From: Candidatus Rokuibacteriota bacterium
GTDB lineage: Bacteria; Methylomirabilota; Methylomirabilia; Rokubacteriales; CSP1-6
Direction of reading: 5' to 3'
DNA length: 6,534 nt
NCBI GenBank assembly: GCA_016177555.1
Contig: JACOVB010000113.1
Location: 1 to 6,534 of the forward strand
This document shows positions 1 to 6,534 of the stretch, piece by piece (position 1 is the stretch's first letter; every line of letters begins with the position of its first letter). The notes under the pieces are model-generated. The model did not search any database, had not been told where the DNA came from, and saw only the letters and a list, made by a program, of their open reading frames with translations. The position numbers were made by a program, and so were the translations under genes.

Positions 1-1
1 C

Positions 2-250
2 GAGATCGCGCGCGCGACCGGCGCGGCGCGGCGGGCCAGCGCGACGATCCTCTTCCTCTACGACGCCCACCTCTACCCGTCGAACCGCGCGCTGCTCGAG
101 GCGCTCCAGCGGGCGGCGCCCGCGCTCGGCGTGGTGGTCATGCGCGATCCCTGGGACGCCGAGTACCTCGCCCCCGTCGTCGGCGGCATCACCGCCTACG
201 GCTGGCGCCGCTGCCAGCTCGACGCCTGCCTCGCCCGCCTGCTCGGCTGA
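2..250 (+). CDS. GH3 beta-N-acetylhexosaminidase, C-terminal fragment (5' end outside window)
   Basis: An open frame enters from the left edge and ends at the TGA at 248-250, giving the last 82 residues of a protein. It has the alternating pattern of the C-terminal alpha/beta domain of family 3 glycoside hydrolases: strand ATILFLYDAHLYPSN (about 14-28), helix ALLEALQRAAP, strand LGVVVMRDPWDAEYLAP (42-58), then GITAYGWRRCQLDACLARLLG. The 'RDPWDAEYL' and 'TAYG' elements recall the ends of NagZ-like beta-N-acetylhexosaminidases, which remove terminal GlcNAc from chitin- or peptidoglycan-derived sugars. The catalytic Asp and the NagZ Asp/His loop lie outside the window, so specificity cannot be tested. 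The last 46 nt are duplicated at 964-1009. The gene converges on brnA, leaving only 24 nt. Family assignment is fairly firm; the exact substrate is inferred. Confidence 0.72.
   Translation, partial: EIARATGAARRASATILFLYDAHLYPSNRALLEALQRAAPALGVVVMRDPWDAEYLAPVVGGITAYGWRRCQLDACLARLLG
205..250 (+). repeat. 46-bp direct repeat, copy 1 (3' end of hexosaminidase gene)
   Basis: This stretch, beginning gcgccgctgccagctcga and ending ctgctcggctga, matches 964-1009 at 45 of 46 positions; the only difference is c223 versus g982. Identity stops immediately after the TGA stop codon on the right and at g204 on the left. The mismatch changes a GAC (Asp) codon to GAG (Glu) in the hexosaminidase frame. The two copies are 759 bp apart in the same orientation and bracket the BrnT/BrnA genes. 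Confidence 0.93.
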
Positions 251-274
251 GGGCCGGCCCGGCAAGCCGCTCCA

Positions 275-571
275 CTATCCCACGCGCTCCTTCGTCAAGC
301 CCTCCGCGATCCACATCCTGAGCAGGGTCTGGTACGGGACGCTCTTGCGTCTGGCCACCTGCTTGGCGGCAGCAATCTGCTGGGGCTCCAGGCGCAAGGT
401 GACCGGCTTCTTCAGCTCGCCCCTCTCGGCCACGTGGCGCCGCAGGCCTGGCGACGCCTTGACAGCAACCTCGCGCAGCGCGCCTGCATACGGCGCCGAA
501 TCGTGGGTCGCCCAGAACTCGGCCGCCTCCCGGTCGTCCTTGAACTTCGGAACGTCTCGCTTGGTCTTCAT
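275..571 (-). CDS. brnA: BrnA-type CopG family antitoxin
   Basis: This encodes a 98-residue protein with the layout of the type II antitoxin BrnA (CopG antitoxin family). The N-terminal toxin-wrapping part carries VPKFKDDREAAEFWATHDSA (7-26), matching the family pattern 'PkFksedEe.eFWethDs'. The C-terminal part is a ribbon-helix-helix DNA-binding domain: strand KPVTLRLE (55-62), helix PQQIAAAKQVARRKS (63-77), turn VPYQ, helix TLLRMWIAEGLTKE (82-95). The ATG at 571-569 overlaps the brnT stop as ATGA, so the two genes are probably translationally coupled; the reading frame is open further upstream but only as a shadow of brnT. BrnA neutralises BrnT by direct binding, and the complex usually represses its own promoter. 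Toxin-first order, typical of brnTA, is kept. The gene ends 24 nt from the convergent hexosaminidase stop. Confidence 0.9.
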   Translation of the reverse strand: MKTKRDVPKFKDDREAAEFWATHDSAPYAGALREVAVKASPGLRRHVAERGELKKPVTLRLEPQQIAAAKQVARRKSVPYQTLLRMWIAEGLTKERVG

Positions 572-852
572 CGCCTTCCCTTCCGCCTGGCCTGATAGAG
601 CCGCTTCTCTCTCTCCGTCACGTCCCGCGCCGTGAGGACCCTCACTGTGGCCCCTCTGCGCGACACATACACGGCGAAGAGGTAGCGCCCTGCGAGGCTC
701 GGTCCGTACGCGAGGTAACGCCCATCCCGGCCGCGCGGCACCAGGGGGTTGCCGGAGAGCGCCTCCTCGACTTCGTCCGGAGAGACCCCGTGCCGGCCGA
801 TGTGCCCCACGTTCTCGTCGTCCCACAGGAATCCCTGGATCCAGGGCATCAC
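568..852 (-). CDS. brnT: BrnT family ribonuclease toxin
   Basis: This encodes a 94-residue protein of the BrnT/DUF497 family, RelE-fold ribonucleases that stop translation by cutting RNA. Visible family elements in order are FLWDDENVGHIGRHGVS (8-24, the 'WD..N..hi.rHGVs' signature), DEVEEALSG (26-34), RYLAYG (45-50), the strand pair GRYLFAVYVSRRG (55-67), and RVLTARDVTEREKRLY (71-86, the 'vR.ltARd.t..Er..Y' signature). Length is normal for the family and no key motif is missing, so the toxin looks intact. The start is ambiguous: GTG at 852 is followed at once by ATG at 849, and only a weak GGGCG-like ribosome site precedes them. The stop overlaps brnA by 4 nt. Typical activation is by proteolytic loss of BrnA under stress. 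Assignment is strong; toxicity in this host is inferred. Confidence 0.9.
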   Translation of the reverse strand: MMPWIQGFLWDDENVGHIGRHGVSPDEVEEALSGNPLVPRGRDGRYLAYGPSLAGRYLFAVYVSRRGATVRVLTARDVTEREKRLYQARRKGRR

Positions 853-865
853 GGCGCCCGACGAC

Positions 866-902
866 AGTGTCCATGAGAAGACCGTACAATGTCAATACAC
901 GG
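866..902 (-). promoter_or_regulatory. Candidate brnTA promoter with imperfect operator palindrome
   Basis: On the minus strand a perfect -35 hexamer TTGACA (895-890) is followed after 18 nt by GACACT (871-866), a weak -10 with 3 of 6 consensus positions. Positions 882-902 form an imperfect palindrome with ccgt and acgg arms, 14 of 20 positions symmetrical, that covers the -35. BrnA-BrnT complexes are known to bind and repress their own promoter, so this is the natural place for the operator. The -35 match is clear; the -10 and operator roles are inferred. Confidence 0.4.
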
Positions 903-959
903 CTCGCGGGCCCCGCGTATGATCACAACGCGCTCCGCTTCTTCAGCCCGGATCACCAG

Positions 960-2333
960 TCACGCGCCGCTGCCAGCTCGAGGCCTGCCTCGCCCGCCTG
1001 CTCGGCTGACTTGGCGCGGGCGCTTCGCGCGCGGCGCCTGAAGCCGGTAGGCCTCCTCCGGTGCAGCCTCGCCTGCCCTGCCGGGCTCCGTCGGCGCCCC
1101 CGTCCGCCACACGGCCTCGATGGGCACCGCGTGGAACCGCCCGCCGAAGGGGAGGGCCATTTCCCCGCCGTACAGCACGACACCCCGCCAGAACCTCGCC
1201 CCGGCCGCGGTGGCCAGGGCCCTGAGCCCCTGGAAGTCGCCGGGCCCCACGGTCGCCGACCGTTTCACCTCGACGCCCACGACCCGGCCCCGCCGGTCCT
1301 CGAGCACGAGGTCCACTTCCTGCTGGCCCGAGGTGCGGAAGTGAGAGAACGCGGGCCGGGTCCGGCTCCAGGTGGCCTGCTTCCACAACTCCATGATCAC
1401 GAAGTTCTCGAGCAGGCCGCCGAGGGGGCCCTGGTCCACGGCGAGCCGCTCCGCACCGACCCCGAGAAGAAACGCCATGAGGCCGGAATCCACGACCAGC
1501 AGCTTCGGACGCTTGAGCAGTCGTACCCCCTGCCCTCCGGACCATGCGGGAACGGTCTGGACGAGGAAAGCGCCCTGCAGCAGCGCCATGTAGCGCCTGA
1601 GCGTGTTCCAGGGCAGGCCGCTGCTGCTGGATACCTCCGCGGCGTTCAGCAGGGTGCCTCCTCGGGCGGCGAGCAAGGCCAGCAGGCGTGGAAGCTCGGT
1701 GAGCCCGGCGACGTTGGAGACGTCGCGGACATCGCGCTGGAGGATCGTCGTGAGGTAGGAGCCGAACCAGGCCTCGCGCCGGCGCGGCTCGACCAGCGCT
1801 TGCGCCTCCGGCAATCCTCCGCGGACGAGGCGCTCCCACAGCTCCGCCCCCACCGCTCGGCCGCGGGGCAGGGCTGGCATGTGATCGGAGAACAGGACGT
1901 CGATCAGCCCCTCGCGAACGCCCTCGATCTCGCCCTGCGAGAGAGGCCACAGCGTCAGGATCTCCATGCGGCCCGGCAGGGCATCGGCCAGGCGCGGCAG
2001 GAGCAGGATGTCGGACGATCCCGTCAGGAGAAAGCGCCCCGGGATGCGCGCGCGGTCCACCTGCACCTTGATCGCGAGGAACAGCTCCGGGGCCCTCTGG
2101 ATCTCGTCCAGGATCACCGGGCCCTCGAACCGGGAGAGAAATCCTGCCGGATCGGTGTACGCGGCCGCGTGCGCCGGGGCCTCGTCCAGGCTCACGTAGG
2201 TGGCCTGATGGCCGGCGGCCACGAGCGACTGCACGAGGGTCGTCTTGCCCGTCTGCCGGGCCCCGTTGACGAGGACGACAGGACGGTCCAGGAGAGCCTC
2301 GCGAACGTGATCAGAGATGTTTCGCCGCAGCAT
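960..2333 (-). CDS. AAA/DUF4143 ATP-binding protein with extended C-terminal tail
   Basis: A 457-residue protein of the common but poorly understood AAA_14 plus DUF4143 family. The N-terminal P-loop domain has Walker A GARQTGKTT (24-32), Walker B VILDEIQ (73-79) and a sensor-like FLLTGSSDI (101-109). A winged-helix-like segment AAEVSSSSGLPWNTLRRYM (231-249) follows, and the C-terminal part has the restriction-endonuclease-like pattern LEN (E310), EVDLVL (D341), VEVK (E355, K357). Family members usually end soon after the strand seen here as FHAVPIEAVW (400-409); the remaining 48 residues are Arg/Gly/Ala-rich and unlike the family. Their codons run through the second copy of the 46-bp repeat, and the stop lies just past it, so the native C-terminus may have been replaced. 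The ATG at 2333 fits the promoter and the family N-terminus (RR.i...v...L...PVVL..GARQTGKTT). Cellular role unknown; such genes are patchily distributed and horizontally mobile. Confidence 0.88.
   Translation of the reverse strand: MLRRNISDHVREALLDRPVVLVNGARQTGKTTLVQSLVAAGHQATYVSLDEAPAHAAAYTDPAGFLSRFEGPVILDEIQRAPELFLAIKVQVDRARIPGRFLLTGSSDILLLPRLADALPGRMEILTLWPLSQGEIEGVREGLIDVLFSDHMPALPRGRAVGAELWERLVRGGLPEAQALVEPRRREAWFGSYLTTILQRDVRDVSNVAGLTELPRLLALLAARGGTLLNAAEVSSSSGLPWNTLRRYMALLQGAFLVQTVPAWSGGQGVRLLKRPKLLVVDSGLMAFLLGVGAERLAVDQGPLGGLLENFVIMELWKQATWSRTRPAFSHFRTSGQQEVDLVLEDRRGRVVGVEVKRSATVGPGDFQGLRALATAAGARFWRGVVLYGGEMALPFGGRFHAVPIEAVWRTGAPTEPGRAGEAAPEEAYRLQAPRAKRPRQVSRAGGRGRPRAGSGA
964..1009 (+). 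repeat. 46-bp direct repeat, copy 2 (inside the ATPase 3' tail)
   Basis: This is the second copy of the hexosaminidase 3' end, including its TGA at 1007-1009, with one mismatch (g982 versus c223). It is not attached to a hexosaminidase coding region: the bases to its left do not continue the alignment, apart from a possible short atcacc patch at 954-959. On the minus strand it encodes roughly residues 442-456 of the ATPase and lies 1 nt inside that gene's last sense codon. Confidence 0.93.
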
Positions 2334-2474: not shown

Positions 2475-3491
2475 TCAGGCGATGGACGGGTGAGGCATGT
2501 CGGGATGGACCGCTTCCTCCAGCGTGAGGCGCGGCCGGTCCCGGAAGGGCTCGCGGCGGACGGGGCACTCGTCGAGGTCGCACATGGCGCAGTAGATCCG
2601 GTGGCAGGGATCGGTGTGGAAGGCGAACTCGCCCTCCACGCCGAGCTGCCGGATCACCGTGTCCGCCAGCGACTCGGCCAGATCGTGGGCCCGGTCCACG
2701 GACCAGAACTCCGGCACGACGAGATGGGCGTCCACGTGGTGGAAACGCCCCGCGCGGATGGCGCGGAGATGATGGACACGGATCACGCCCTGCCCCACGT
2801 GGGAGCGCAGCACCTCCAGCAGCCGGTTCAGCAGGTCGGTGTCCTCTTCGTCGAGGAGACCGCCCGCGGCGTGGCGCACCAGGCGGTAGCCGGTCCACAT
2901 AAGGTTGAGCGCGACCACCGCGGCCGCCAGCGGATCGAGCCAGACGAGCCCCGTCAGCCGGACGAGGAGCAGGCCCACGATGATGCCGGCGCTGGTCCAG
3001 ACATCCGAGAGCACGTGCTGCCCGTCGGCCACGAGGGTCAGCGACTGGTAACGGCGACCCGTGCCGACGAGGAACAGGCCGAGGGCGAGGTTCGCCAGGC
3101 TGGCGGCAGCGATGATCAGGACGCCCTGGCCCAGCTGGCGCACCTCGGGGCCACGGATCAGGCTCAGCGCGACCTCGTAGACGATGACGACGGCGGCGAA
3201 GGCGATGAGGCCGCCCTCGAAGGCTGCCGAGAAGAACTCGACCTTCCCGTGCCCGTAGGGATGATTGCGGTCGGCTGGATGAGCGGCGAAGATGAGGCCG
3301 CCCACGGCAAAGACCGCCGCCACCACGTTGACAATGGACTCCAGCGCGTCCGACAGGATGGCCGTGGAGCCGGTGAGCCGGTAGGCCTCGTACTTGGCGC
3401 CGAGGAGCACCGCCGACACCACGAGGGAGATGACGCCCGCCCTGAGGCGGATCCGCGAGTCGTCGGCCGGTGGCTCGTGCAGGGCGATCAT
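2475..3491 (-). CDS. Cation diffusion facilitator (CDF) family transporter
   Basis: A 338-residue inner-membrane protein of the CDF family, which export divalent metal ions in exchange for protons. About six membrane helices occupy residues 17-205. The TM2 motif is ILSDALESIVNVVAA (45-59), followed by the loop HPADRNHPYGHGKVEFF (71-87) and the TM5 motif VADGQHVLSDVW (154-165) with H159 and D163. The cytoplasmic C-terminal domain contains HHVDAHLVVP (251-260) and a terminal cysteine cluster at C296, C301, C304 and C309 in DPCHRIYCAMCDLDECPVR, suggesting a bound metal. In TM2 the residues aligned with the FieF metal ligands Asp45/Asp49 read Glu51/Asn55, so the metal specificity is not the standard zinc type. 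The ATG at 3491 is preceded by a weak GCGGGC. The gene lies 44 nt downstream of the symporter gene and is probably expressed with it; the open frame running far upstream is a GC-rich shadow, not a fusion. Confidence 0.92.
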   Translation of the reverse strand: MIALHEPPADDSRIRLRAGVISLVVSAVLLGAKYEAYRLTGSTAILSDALESIVNVVAAVFAVGGLIFAAHPADRNHPYGHGKVEFFSAAFEGGLIAFAAVVIVYEVALSLIRGPEVRQLGQGVLIIAAASLANLALGLFLVGTGRRYQSLTLVADGQHVLSDVWTSAGIIVGLLLVRLTGLVWLDPLAAAVVALNLMWTGYRLVRHAAGGLLDEEDTDLLNRLLEVLRSHVGQGVIRVHHLRAIRAGRFHHVDAHLVVPEFWSVDRAHDLAESLADTVIRQLGVEGEFAFHTDPCHRIYCAMCDLDECPVRREPFRDRPRLTLEEAVHPDMPHPSIA

Positions 3492-3535: not shown

Positions 3536-5023
3536 CTAGCGGCGGTCGAGCGCGGGGGCGAGCAGCACCGCCAGCGCCATGGTGCCGGCCGTGCCCAGGA
3601 TCACGAGCCACGACCAGCCCAGCGCGATCACGCGCGTCTCGGCGAGGATCAGGAGCCCGAGGTTGATCAGCGCCATGATCACCATGGCCATCACGTTGGC
3701 CCGGTTCGACCGGACGCGGGTCAAGAGCCCGAGCAGGAAGACGCCCAGCAGCGAGCCGAAGGTCACTCCCGCGATCTTGAAGGCGAGCCAGAGGATCTTG
3801 TCGAAGTAGGAGAAGCCGAATGCCAGCGCCGCCAGGACGAGGCCGAAGGCGATGACGGCGAGCCGGGAGACGCGCAGGTAGTGGCGCTCGCTCCCGTCCG
3901 GGACGAGAAGCGGCCGGTAGATGTCGGTCACGAAGGAGGCGGCGAGCGAGCCCAGCGGCGAGTCGATGGACGCCAGCACGATGGCCGTGAGCATCATCCC
4001 GCGCAGCACCACCGGCATGGCGGACCGGATGAAGAATGGGAAGATCTCGTCCGGCCGCGGCAGCGCCGTCCCCGCGTGCTGGACGTAGTACGTGTAGAGC
4101 CCCGCGCCGATCGTGAGGTAGAGCGCCAGCGTCACGAGGGTGCCGAGCGGCGTGATCGAGAGCGTCCGCTGGCTCTCCCGCCGCGTCTCCACCGTGAGCA
4201 GGCGCTGCATGAGGTCGTGATCGGTGCCGAAGGCCGCCATGGAGCCCACGAGCCCATTGAGGATGGCGAGCCAGAAGATGTTCGGGTCCGTGAGCACGCG
4301 CCGCCAGAAGTCCGGATCGCCCGGCGCCGGCCCCCAGTTGATGACGGTGAGCCGTCCCGCCTCGGATGCCGTGGCGAAGATCGCCCCGAGGCCGCCCTGC
4401 ACCTCCCAGGCGAGGAAGAGCACGGTGGCGAGCCCGCCCACGAGGAACATCCCGGCCTGGAAGACATTGGTCCAGACCACCGCCTTGACGCCGCCCATGG
4501 CGATGTAGGCGATGGACACCGCGGTGAACAGCGTGATGGTCGCCCAGAGCGGCCAGCCCACGAGGACGGAGACCGCGAGCGCCGCGGCCATGAGCCGCAC
4601 GCCCGAGCCCAGCAGCCGCGTGATGAAGAAGAAGATGGAGCCCGTCACCTGGCTGGCGGCGCCGAAGCGGTGCTTGAGGAACTCGTAGATCGTCACGCAG
4701 TCGTAGCGGTAGAAGGCGGGGATGAAGAGGACGGCCACGGCGAACTTGGCGAGGCTCGAGCCGACGAAGAACTGCGCGTACTCCCAGTTCTCGCTGTAGG
4801 CCGTGGCGGGGACCGAGATGATCGTGACGGCGCTGATCTCCGTCGCGAGGAAGGACAGGCACGCGGCCCACCACGGGATGCGCCGCCGGGCCAGGAAGAA
4901 GTCAGCGGTGTTCCGCTGCTGGCGGGTGAAGACTCCGCCAATGGCGAGGAGACAGGCCAGCGAGAGCACAAGGACCGCGTAGTCGGGCCAGGTGAGCGAC
5001 CCGCCGAGGGAGGAGGGCGCCAT
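3536..5023 (-). CDS. Sodium:solute symporter (SSS) family transporter
   Basis: A complete 495-residue integral membrane protein with about 13 hydrophobic helices, the usual SSS topology. TM1 is residues 12-32; the DFFLARRRIPWWAACLSFLA segment (41-60) leads into the broken TM2, and GGVKAVVWTNVFQAGMFLVGG (177-197) and GTDHDLMQRLLT (266-277, the 'G.D...vQR' signature) are diagnostic. LASIDSPLGSLAASFVTDIYR (350-370) is the Na2-site helix. Members use the sodium gradient to import sugars, sialic acids, amino acids or vitamins; this subgroup's substrate cannot be read from sequence. The adjacent sugar kinase and the hexosaminidase 4.8 kb away make an amino sugar a reasonable guess. At the Na2 site the usual Ser-Ser or Ser-Thr pair appears as Ser352-Ile353. 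The start is the ATG at 5023, 11 nt from a CATAAT box; the C-terminus ends at a TAG inside a small palindrome (3534-3543). CDF gene follows after 44 nt. Confidence 0.93.
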   Translation of the reverse strand: MAPSSLGGSLTWPDYAVLVLSLACLLAIGGVFTRQQRNTADFFLARRRIPWWAACLSFLATEISAVTIISVPATAYSENWEYAQFFVGSSLAKFAVAVLFIPAFYRYDCVTIYEFLKHRFGAASQVTGSIFFFITRLLGSGVRLMAAALAVSVLVGWPLWATITLFTAVSIAYIAMGGVKAVVWTNVFQAGMFLVGGLATVLFLAWEVQGGLGAIFATASEAGRLTVINWGPAPGDPDFWRRVLTDPNIFWLAILNGLVGSMAAFGTDHDLMQRLLTVETRRESQRTLSITPLGTLVTLALYLTIGAGLYTYYVQHAGTALPRPDEIFPFFIRSAMPVVLRGMMLTAIVLASIDSPLGSLAASFVTDIYRPLLVPDGSERHYLRVSRLAVIAFGLVLAALAFGFSYFDKILWLAFKIAGVTFGSLLGVFLLGLLTRVRSNRANVMAMVIMALINLGLLILAETRVIALGWSWLVILGTAGTMALAVLLAPALDRR

Positions 5024-5088: not shown

Positions 5089-5967
5089 GTGACGCCTCCC
5101 GCCCGTCGATCAGCGGATCGCGCCGGCTCGTGGGCAGTGGCGGTGGACCGCGGCGGCACCTGGGTACGCGTGCTGGCCGCAAGCCGCGCGGGAGAGGAGC
5201 GCGCCGCCCGGCGGCCCGCGAGCCGCGTCCCCGACCTCGAGCGGCCGCTCGCGCGCCTGCTCCGCCGGTGGCGGATCGCGCCGGATGAGATCGGCGCCCT
5301 CGTCGTGGCCTCGCGCGGCGTGTGGACGGCCGCCGAGCGCCGCGCGGCCGAGCACGGGCTGCGCGGGCTGGCTCGCCGGATCCGCGCCATCTCCGATGTC
5401 GAGGCGGCGTATCGCGGCGCGCTGGGCGAGGGGGCGGGGGTCCTCCTGCTCGCCGGCACCGGCTCCATCGCGCTCGGCCGCGACGTGCGCGGAGGCTGGC
5501 GGCGCGCCGGCGGGCTCGGTCCGCTCCTGGGCGACGAGGGCTCGGCGTTCTGGATCGGGCGCCAGTGGCTCAGGGCCATAGCCGGTGAGGCAAGCCGGCC
5601 CCGGCTGCGACGGCTCCTCGGCGCGCCCGATGCGGTGAGGCGCATCGCCGCGCTGGCCCCCGCCGTGCTTCGCCGGGCCCGCGGCGGCGACAGCCAGGCC
5701 CGCCACGTGGTGGCGGAGGCTCAGCGCGAGCTCGCGAGGCTCCTTCACGAGGCCGCGCGTCGGGCGCGGCTCAGGCCGCCCGTCCGTGTGAGCTGGGCCG
5801 GGCGCCTCATGGACGACGCGGCCTTCCGCGCCGGCGTCTGGCGCGCGGCGCGGCGGCAGGGCCTGCGCATCGCGCCCCGCCCGCCGGCGGCAGCGCCCGT
5901 CAGAGCCGCCCTCGGCCTGGCGATCGCCACGCTCGCCCCCACCACGCGTACGCCGCGGGGCCCGTGA
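5089..5967 (+). CDS. BadF/BadG/BcrA/BcrD-type ATPase, N-acetylglucosamine kinase-like
   Basis: A 292-residue cytoplasmic protein with the actin/hexokinase-type ATPase fold of the BadF group, whose simple members phosphorylate GlcNAc or related amino sugars. Counting from GTG 5089, phosphate-1 is AVAVDRGGTWVRV (16-28), the likely catalytic Asp is D103 in SDVEAAYRG, phosphate-2 is LLLAGTGSIALGR (119-131), and the sugar/nucleotide segment is GGLGPLLGDEGSAFWIG (141-157), almost the textbook NAGK signature. A weaker C-terminal adenosine-like motif VSWAGRLMDD (234-243) and PVRAALGLA (270-278) follow. GTG was preferred to the in-frame ATG at 5038 because a TACAAT box lies just before it and homologues begin close to the first strand. 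The gene diverges from the symporter and overlaps the permease remnant by 68 bp at the 3' end. A benzoyl-CoA reductase-type activator is unlikely, as no CxxC cluster ligands are present. A likely partner of the hexosaminidase in amino-sugar recycling (inference). Confidence 0.85.
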   Translation: MTPPARRSADRAGSWAVAVDRGGTWVRVLAASRAGEERAARRPASRVPDLERPLARLLRRWRIAPDEIGALVVASRGVWTAAERRAAEHGLRGLARRIRAISDVEAAYRGALGEGAGVLLLAGTGSIALGRDVRGGWRRAGGLGPLLGDEGSAFWIGRQWLRAIAGEASRPRLRRLLGAPDAVRRIAALAPAVLRRARGGDSQARHVVAEAQRELARLLHEAARRARLRPPVRVSWAGRLMDDAAFRAGVWRAARRQGLRIAPRPPAAAPVRAALGLAIATLAPTTRTPRGP

Positions 5968-6534
5968 GTGCCGCGGCCACGCCGATTGCCGTGTTGAGCC
6001 AGTCGGCCGTCGCCATGGCCAGCAGGCTCACCGCCGCGGGAAGCGCCGCCGTCAGCCACATGCCCGCGCGGCCCCCGCTGACGCGCCACGGCCGCGCCAG
6101 ATCGGGCTCGCCCAGCCGGAGCGCGACGAAGGCGGCGACTTCCAGCAGGAGCGCCAGCGAGTGGAGCCACATGTTCAGGACGATGAGCTCCTTGGATGAA
6201 GCCGAGCGCGAGCGCCCAGCGCGCGGGGGCCGACATGCCGGGCCACCAGAAGCGCAGGTAGTCGGCGAAGAGCGCGGGATATACCGCCACGTCCACGAAC
6301 GAGTTGAGCCAGGACCACCAGCCGACCTGGAAGCCCCAGAAGGGGCCGAAGGCGCGCCGCACCCAGGTGACGTAGCCGCCCTCGGCGGGGAGCGCCCCGG
6401 CCATCTCGGACATGGCCAGCGAGACTGGCAGGCTCCAGACCAGCGGTGTCTCCATCAGGAGCAGGAGGGCGAGCCCAGGACCGAAGGATGCCACCGCATT
6501 CTCGATCCCGTAGGGACCGCCGCTCACATTGAAG
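5900..6534 (-). pseudogene. APC-family amino acid/polyamine permease, internally deleted and frameshifted
   Basis: The right edge opens inside the N-terminal part of an APC-superfamily permease: FNVSGGPYGIENAVASFGPG, then LVWSLPVSLAMSEMAGALPA, GGYVTWVRRAFGPFWGFQVG, and WWSWLNSFVDVAVYPALF, all family hallmarks. This frame is convincing down to RWALALGF (codon at 6200-6198), after which it loses family character. The next frame then resumes with SKELIVLNMWLHSLALLLEV and ALRLGEPDLARPWRVSGG, the end of such permeases, up to the TGA at 5902-5900. The helices that normally lie between (about TM4 to TM9 or TM10, of the order of 200 residues) are absent, and the halves are in different frames. The join falls at about 6194-6200. 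The true 5' end is outside the window. No functional transporter can be made from this; a bad assembly join is the alternative explanation. The original substrate was probably an amino acid or polyamine. Confidence 0.82.

Follow-up and report, generated by a model that had tools for sequence, protein, structure and literature searches.

A BrnT-BrnA toxin-antitoxin pair between two copies of a hydrolase gene end in Rokuibacteriota, and its possible gain by displacement

BrnT is an RNase toxin, and BrnA is both its antitoxin and its repressor. Genomic islands inserted at tRNA genes, together with non-autonomous elements flanked by attachment (att) sites, form a known class of acquired DNA. Here we consider a BrnT-BrnA (BrnTA) pair in a window of 6,534 nucleotides (nt), the whole stretch of DNA analysed, from a Candidatus Rokuibacteriota bacterium (assembly GCA_016177555.1, contig JACOVB010000113.1). 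The pair lies between the end of a gene for a glycoside hydrolase of family 3 (GH3) and a gene for a DUF4143 ATPase, and on either side of it stands a copy of the last 46 nt of the hydrolase gene. Small variable segments with flanking repeats have been described before; in the species studied in PMC2884548, 10-18% of small variable segments are flanked by direct repeats. In Vibrio cholerae, the effector-immunity arrays of the type VI secretion system (T6SS) contain old 3' ends that have been displaced, and homology-facilitated illegitimate recombination has been proposed as the cause (PMC5361080).

The locus resembles each of these systems in part. In common with the microdiversity loci of PMC2884548 it has a short variable segment between conserved genes, a short direct repeat and an empty allele; unlike those loci, as that source presents them, what is repeated is the 3' tip of the neighbouring gene itself, and the neighbours favour gain over deletion. 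As in the T6SS arrays, an incoming module would be anchored in a conserved upstream gene, with the old 3' end and its partner gene moved downstream, but in the account of PMC5361080 the arrays displace parts of effectors along with immunity genes, whereas here the displaced material would be the hydrolase tip and the DUF4143 ATPase. The likeness to tRNA-site islands, for which locus L143 serves as our example, is that a direct repeat of a gene 3' end brackets BrnTA cargo, on a contig that gives no match to a tyrosine recombinase. The differences are that the gene end is protein-coding, that reuse of the site is not seen and that the unit measures just 759 base pairs (bp).

Comparison of the window with itself gives a direct repeat of 46 nt (205-250 and 964-1009), identical at 45 of 46 positions and with an offset of 759. 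The original prediction for this locus, made from the sequence letters, held that the last 46 nt of the hydrolase gene, ending at its stop codon, recur in this way, that only the BrnT-BrnA gene pair lies between the copies, and that the 759-bp unit contains no integrase or transposase. All of this is borne out: Pfam hits to PF04365 and PF12441 identify the pair, and neither kind of enzyme was found among the eight open reading frames (ORFs) of the window that were scanned. The enclosed cargo is BrnT and a CopG-type antitoxin only, with 111 bp upstream of the brnT frame. The repeat scores 43, as against a maximum of 16 across 50 dinucleotide shuffles of the downstream part of the window, which excludes chance. 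Both edges of the identity are sharp; on the left, TG at 203-204 faces AC at 962-963, and on the right, just past the TGA, GGGCC from 251 faces CTTGG from 1010. Other signatures are lacking. With no convincing terminal inverted repeats (25 of 29 inverted pairs examined) and no transposase among the scanned ORFs, the unit does not look derived from an insertion sequence (IS) or transposon. The window gives no Rfam match at gathering thresholds and contains no tRNA gene, and the repeat core has no exact match in viral contigs. Dyad symmetry in the 46 bp does not rise above that of shuffles, a test that two tRNA controls fail likewise and that is thus uninformative.

Relatives of the hydrolase gene show what else can occupy this site. 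The 82 amino acids of its end find at least eight loci, seven in Rokubacteria or Rokuibacteriota and one in Methylomirabilota. Within the family of one of these (L001), 54 of 57 genomes were matched and 52 of the 54 compared downstream, hits in G011 and G040 being left out; five of the 52 loci have less than 1.5 kilobases (kb) of downstream sequence. The nearest relative among the matches listed, L001 from Rokubacteria GWA2_70_23, is an empty site: it has no BrnTA, the 46 bp occur once, and the hydrolase gene abuts the same DUF4143 ATPase gene (ATPase A) that in the window comes after copy 2. Window 1-250 corresponds to L001 5958-6207 at 94% identity, and window 964-2061 to L001 6162-7259 at 96%, the latter contiguous with the hydrolase. 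Given this empty site, the unit behaves as a segment that is either precisely present or precisely absent, and the simplest reading of the direction is a gain. ATPase A of L001 (6146-7259) is itself degraded, with an in-frame stop and its 5' part lost at 7259, beyond which the sequence is unrelated.

A different arrangement is found in L002 (GWC2_70_16), where brnA stands directly behind the hydrolase gene at the same distance (25 nt, as against 24 nt in the window), brnT is missing and there is only a single copy of the repeat, its tip agreeing at 38/46 positions with copy 1 and at 39/46 with copy 2. Here (L002 6233-7881) a DUF4143 ATPase gene (ATPase B), unlike that of the window, overlaps the start of brnA by 4 nt, and it looks as if the antitoxin had switched partner. 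Between the window and L002, DNA identity is 86% for the hydrolase, 89% for brnA, 87% for the cation transporter that forms the right flank and 90% for a sodium:solute symporter, so that brnA and its flanks have diverged to about the same degree. Between the two copies of the repeat the difference is 1/46, and the duplication is thus probably younger than the split between window and L002, unless the copies have been converted. In L047 (genome G057) a gap of only 91 bp separates the hydrolase stop from the cation transporter. The symporter has a downstream match in 37 of the 52 loci; in 32 the identity is at least 60%, and in 17 a match of this identity lies within 100 bp of the hydrolase stop. 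The sequence directly past the stop differs among the window, L001, L002 and L047, and alternative modules are found behind the same conserved gene in the close relatives L001, L002, L047 and P0053 (the last described below), as expected of displacement. In these uncultured bacteria the alleles form a series at the 3' end of one protein gene: empty, ATPase A alone, brnA with ATPase B, and BrnTA with ATPase A. Both ATPases (window 960-2333 and L002 6526-7881) match the PADLOC phage-defence candidate PDC-S01, with E 4.8e-159 and 1.1e-89, which means that the spot exchanges a toxin-antitoxin pair and candidate defence genes.

The ATPase A frame runs antisense into the hydrolase end, so the C-terminus of the protein reveals the DNA beyond it. 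In the empty site of L001 the frame reaches 62 nt into the hydrolase end; in the window it is open antisense through copy 2, meets a stop directly beyond that copy and is only four codons shorter than in L001. The window protein ends ...VSRAGGRGRPRAGSGA. The P0052 ATPase (97% identical over 96%, from a separate contig of 4,061 bp) stops at the same codon, with the tail ...VRRAGGRSRRRAGSGA and with substitutions of its own inside copy 2. Both share the tail ...RAGSGA, where L001 runs on as ...SGASRSR. The P0053 ATPase (82%; contig of 56.9 kb) ends ...GRPSSHSR, and the tails of L001 and P0053 are the antisense of an intact hydrolase end. Judged by protein ends alone, P0052 most likely has the same junction as the window, and the tail of P0053 suggests that ATPase A directly abuts the hydrolase there as well, in a second lineage. 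Abutment in two lineages, with the window order in at least two sequences, argues against an artefact and leaves gain of BrnTA as the simplest polarity; the alleles and the junction are seen directly, and the polarity follows by parsimony.

We propose that the BrnTA module was gained at a spot of small-module turnover behind the GH3 gene, by recombination and displacement anchored in the hydrolase, and we give this proposal about an even chance of being right; that the pair was acquired as a 759-bp unit is probable. For donor, pairing and joining we infer the following steps. The incoming DNA would have carried a hydrolase 3' region followed by BrnTA, and the recipient chromosome the hydrolase followed by ATPase A. 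One end would have been resolved by homologous recombination inside the hydrolase gene, while the other, upstream of brnT (at 963), would have been joined without homology 46 nt before the resident stop. The outcome would be an intact hydrolase gene with BrnTA behind it and, pushed further downstream, the former 3' tip and ATPase A, and the process as a whole would be a homology-anchored, one-sided illegitimate recombination. The tip may have been tolerated or kept because of the antisense overlap seen in the empty site, by virtue of which the duplication spares the hydrolase and costs the ATPase frame four codons only. Since the sequences past the stop differ between haplotypes, a boundary at the stop codon follows by itself, and no att core is needed to explain it. 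It is the displaced 46-bp tip that suggests this order of events.

Several points weigh against the proposal. The main gap is that no donor with hydrolase, brnA, brnT and a single copy was found, L002 being without brnT. Copy 1 is L001-like at 46/46 positions and L002-like at 38/46, which leaves no trace of an L002-like donor in this copy; one would have to assume a donor more closely related, or a crossover almost at the stop. Where its frequency has been measured, homology-facilitated illegitimate recombination is rare, at 3e-10 per recipient in the Escherichia coli conjugation experiments of PMC3240628, and the discussion in PMC5361080 likewise calls it rarer than ordinary homologous recombination. 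Moreover, the closest BrnT relative among 95 genomes of the phylum, in G018, lies in an att-like unit at a tRNA gene.

The setting of BrnT elsewhere in the phylum bears on this last point. We compared 61 loci, 60 of them from 121 places and hand-picked for contig room, plus the BrnA place G050:C122; in many the contig ends within the locus. Of the 61, 13 have a bracketing repeat, defined as at least 25 bp at 88% identity or more within 8 kb. For comparison, 21 of 380 centres have one in 20 stretches of 20 kb that were chosen by hand on long contigs (Fisher p 2e-4, an optimistic value since the centres overlap). By the same definition none of 860 positions in 43 hydrolase loci is bracketed, and of 1031 other positions within these BrnT loci 117 are. 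When the flanks are limited to 1.5 kb per side, the figures are 4/61 and 11/560 (p 0.05). Repeats are thus frequent at BrnT loci, but there is hardly any enrichment of tight units, and for this reason the idea that BrnTA loci generally lie between gene-end repeats was dropped. The 13 comprise four repeats of tRNA 3' ends (ARAGORN confirms two, and the other two were recognised by eye), a pair that looks IS-like by eye, two long gene duplications, four matches of 25-29 bp and two repeats that involve protein-gene 3' ends (L145 and L177). Among 27 further BrnT loci, partly from the same places, five have any pair of repeats inside 3 kb. Two of these are cases already named, L264 being the G018 unit and L285 being L177; L273 carries a pair of 103 bp, and L265 and L284 have both members of the pair on a single side. 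A ParE control of 30 loci, with flanks of up to 1.5 kb, gave one repeat pair (L245) and was not used as a rate.

The individual cases are of different kinds. In L143 (G018:C94) there is a tandem accretion at tRNA-Lys, with a complete tRNA and two 3'-half copies at 3984-4059, 13343-13387 and 14943-14988; BrnTA occupies the last unit, of 1.6 kb, and the complete tRNA-Lys lies further upstream. The adjoining unit encodes an HTH_17 protein and a protein with weak helix-turn-helix hits, and the contig has no match to PF00589, the search in relatives covering tyrosine recombinases only. For G035 and G049, on the same BrnT branch (62% and 58% amino-acid identity), no bracketing repeat was found at their places. 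The loci with tRNA or tRNA-like brackets (G018, L159, L186 and L199) look like ordinary genomic-island footprints. In L177 (G043:C57) BrnT is bracketed by a 159-bp duplication at 92% identity (4168-4326 and 5141-5299), which runs from the last part of a short-chain dehydrogenase gene into the first part of the gene after it, and by a further piece of 26 bp; both neighbouring frames remain open. As this repeat is not limited to a gene end, it is predicted by duplicative recombination and not by an att core, and L177 may be regarded as a looser analogue of the window, where insertion between two overlapping genes left both readable. In L273 (G052:C175) BrnT lies between perfect 103-bp copies that look coding (511-613 and 2607-2709), the second ending at the contig end. 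L145 (G056:C78) has a 50-bp repeat (94%) of the 3' end of a permease-like gene, at 353-402 and 6192-6241, both copies ending in TGA and 5.8 kb apart; it was dropped as a second case, since L228 shows native downstream sequence inside the bracketed stretch, which is not a simple insertion. At the hydrolase locus L092 a dispersed repeat occurs at 547-604, 2192-2262 and 3889-3959, one copy forming an added hydrolase tail (G035) and another being inverted. A 40-nt match there was ruled out as reuse of the tip, being a different, added tail segment that belongs to this repeat.

The original prediction saw in the locus the mark of an integrative element. In its explicit form the unit would be a non-autonomous BrnTA cassette of 759 bp whose 46-bp att site mimics the hydrolase 3' end, and a recombinase acting in trans would restore the gene; we consider this possible but rather unlikely. 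The cargo lies between exact repeats of the gene end and the gene itself is whole, as with such elements, and the empty site that the prediction looked for exists in clean form in L001 and, by protein tail only, in P0053. The BrnT loci add to this, since the closest relative among the 95 genomes (G018, 71% amino-acid identity) has its 1.6-kb unit between tRNA-Lys 3'-half repeats and L159 is bracketed by a tRNA-Phe 3'-end repeat. To the eye the repeats of L186 and L199 resemble tRNA 3' ends, but at neither place is a tRNA called by ARAGORN or Rfam; a possible integrase remnant in L199 is weak, its E of 0.001 falling below the cut-off of the family. What is not supported is the role of the 46 bp as a core site. 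The prediction would have the same boundary found around other cargo, yet none of the 52 other hydrolase loci, five of them with less than 1.5 kb of sequence behind the gene, has a second copy of the homologous tip there. Nor is there a recombinase among the eight ORFs scanned or a convincing terminal inverted repeat to support the cassette, or any dyad in the 46 bp beyond that of shuffles, though here the tRNA controls do not stand out either; L002 has brnA without a second copy (brnT is missing there too), and the tRNA islands are ordinary. The wider claim that BrnTA of Rokubacteria are integrase-less cassettes, placed by a helper recombinase at the 3' ends of tRNA and protein genes through gene-end mimics of 45-70 bp, strikes us as decidedly improbable. 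On that reading the 759-bp unit of the window would be the smallest such cassette among those examined, and toxin-antitoxin genes would be carried by satellite cassettes of very small size.

There are two further explanations. The order in the window may be ancestral; BrnTA would then have been lost from L001 and P0053 by recombination between the 46-bp repeats, and L002 would have lost ATPase A and the repeat along with brnT. In the species covered by PMC2884548, as many as one fifth of small variable segments may be accounted for by recombination at short repeats on either side, and brnA of L002 (89% in DNA) and ATPase A of P0053 (82% in protein) do look about as old as the clade. We nevertheless find this history improbable, for it requires at least two independent precise deletions, and the 1/46 difference between the copies is below the expectation from a hydrolase divergence of 14% in the clade, unless they have been converted. 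The other explanation is that copy 2 is a chimeric join made in assembly, short repeats being able to mislead assemblers. Against this stands P0052, which on another contig and at 97% identity ends at the same codon past copy 2, so that an assembly error is unlikely, and which has substitutions of its own within that copy; the ATPase frame, too, is open through copy 2. An artefact is in our judgement exceedingly improbable.

The features of the window are collected in Table 1. The GH3 identity is taken from the longer L001 homologue (Glyco_hydro_3, E 1.1e-64), the 82 hydrolase residues inside the window giving no Pfam hit. The BrnT-domain toxin comes first and the CopG-type BrnA second in one operon, and in gene order, 4-nt overlap, sizes and domains the genes are like known BrnT-BrnA type II systems, beside which they show nothing unusual; by analogy the pair is expected to be an ordinary type II system. 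Two proteins, P0001 (94% amino-acid identity over 87%) and P0172 (99%), are closer to it than any BrnT or BrnA in the genomes compared. The -35-like TTGACA upstream of brnT, picked out by eye, lies in a stretch that resembles the corresponding region of the G018 brnT. Among viral contigs 24 pattern stretches yielded no confirmed BrnT relative, and PADLOC gives no match for BrnT or BrnA. On the minus strand at 2412-2462 there is a possible remnant of an ATPase B-like gene end (WRLDVKTG as against WLVEVKTG), with a 38-bp match to L002 (84%, E 8e-4), which may be due to chance. At 6194/6195 about 620-626 bp of an amino-acid permease region present in L003, L004, L007 and L008 are absent, reflecting either a deletion or an assembly gap.

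Table 1. Positions of genes, repeat copies and junction in the 6,534-nt window
Feature	Position	Strand	Remarks
GH3 family (beta-N-acetylhexosaminidase-like) gene, 3' end; constant left flank	2..250	+	by homology
Repeat copy 1	205..250	+	last codon is the hydrolase stop, TGA; agrees with the one L001 copy at 46/46
Spacer, hydrolase stop to brnA stop	251..274	.	24 nt; 25 nt in L002, 15/25 aligned columns identical
brnA antitoxin (CopG_antitoxin, PF12441)	275..571	-	E 9.7e-13; 4-nt overlap with brnT
brnT toxin (PF04365)	568..852	-	E 1.7e-10; probable start codon at 849, as in relatives
brnT upstream region	853..963	-	-35-like TTGACA at 895-890, seen by eye
ATPase A gene (AAA_14/DUF4143), open, 457 amino acids	960..2333	-	matches PADLOC candidate PDC-S01
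Novel junction, brnT upstream DNA / displaced gene tip	963..964	.	same ATPase end point in P0052
Repeat copy 2	964..1009	+	outside the hydrolase gene; read antisense, encodes the ATPase C-terminus
Cation efflux transporter; right flank	2475..3491	-	91 bp behind the hydrolase in L047

What we describe is probably a known kind of genome change, a scar of recombination between relatives whose small genes at this place differ, and not a new mobile element, and it provides a fairly well-resolved example of the known turnover of small modules. It shows that a toxin-antitoxin pair can be added beside a candidate defence gene with neither neighbour broken.

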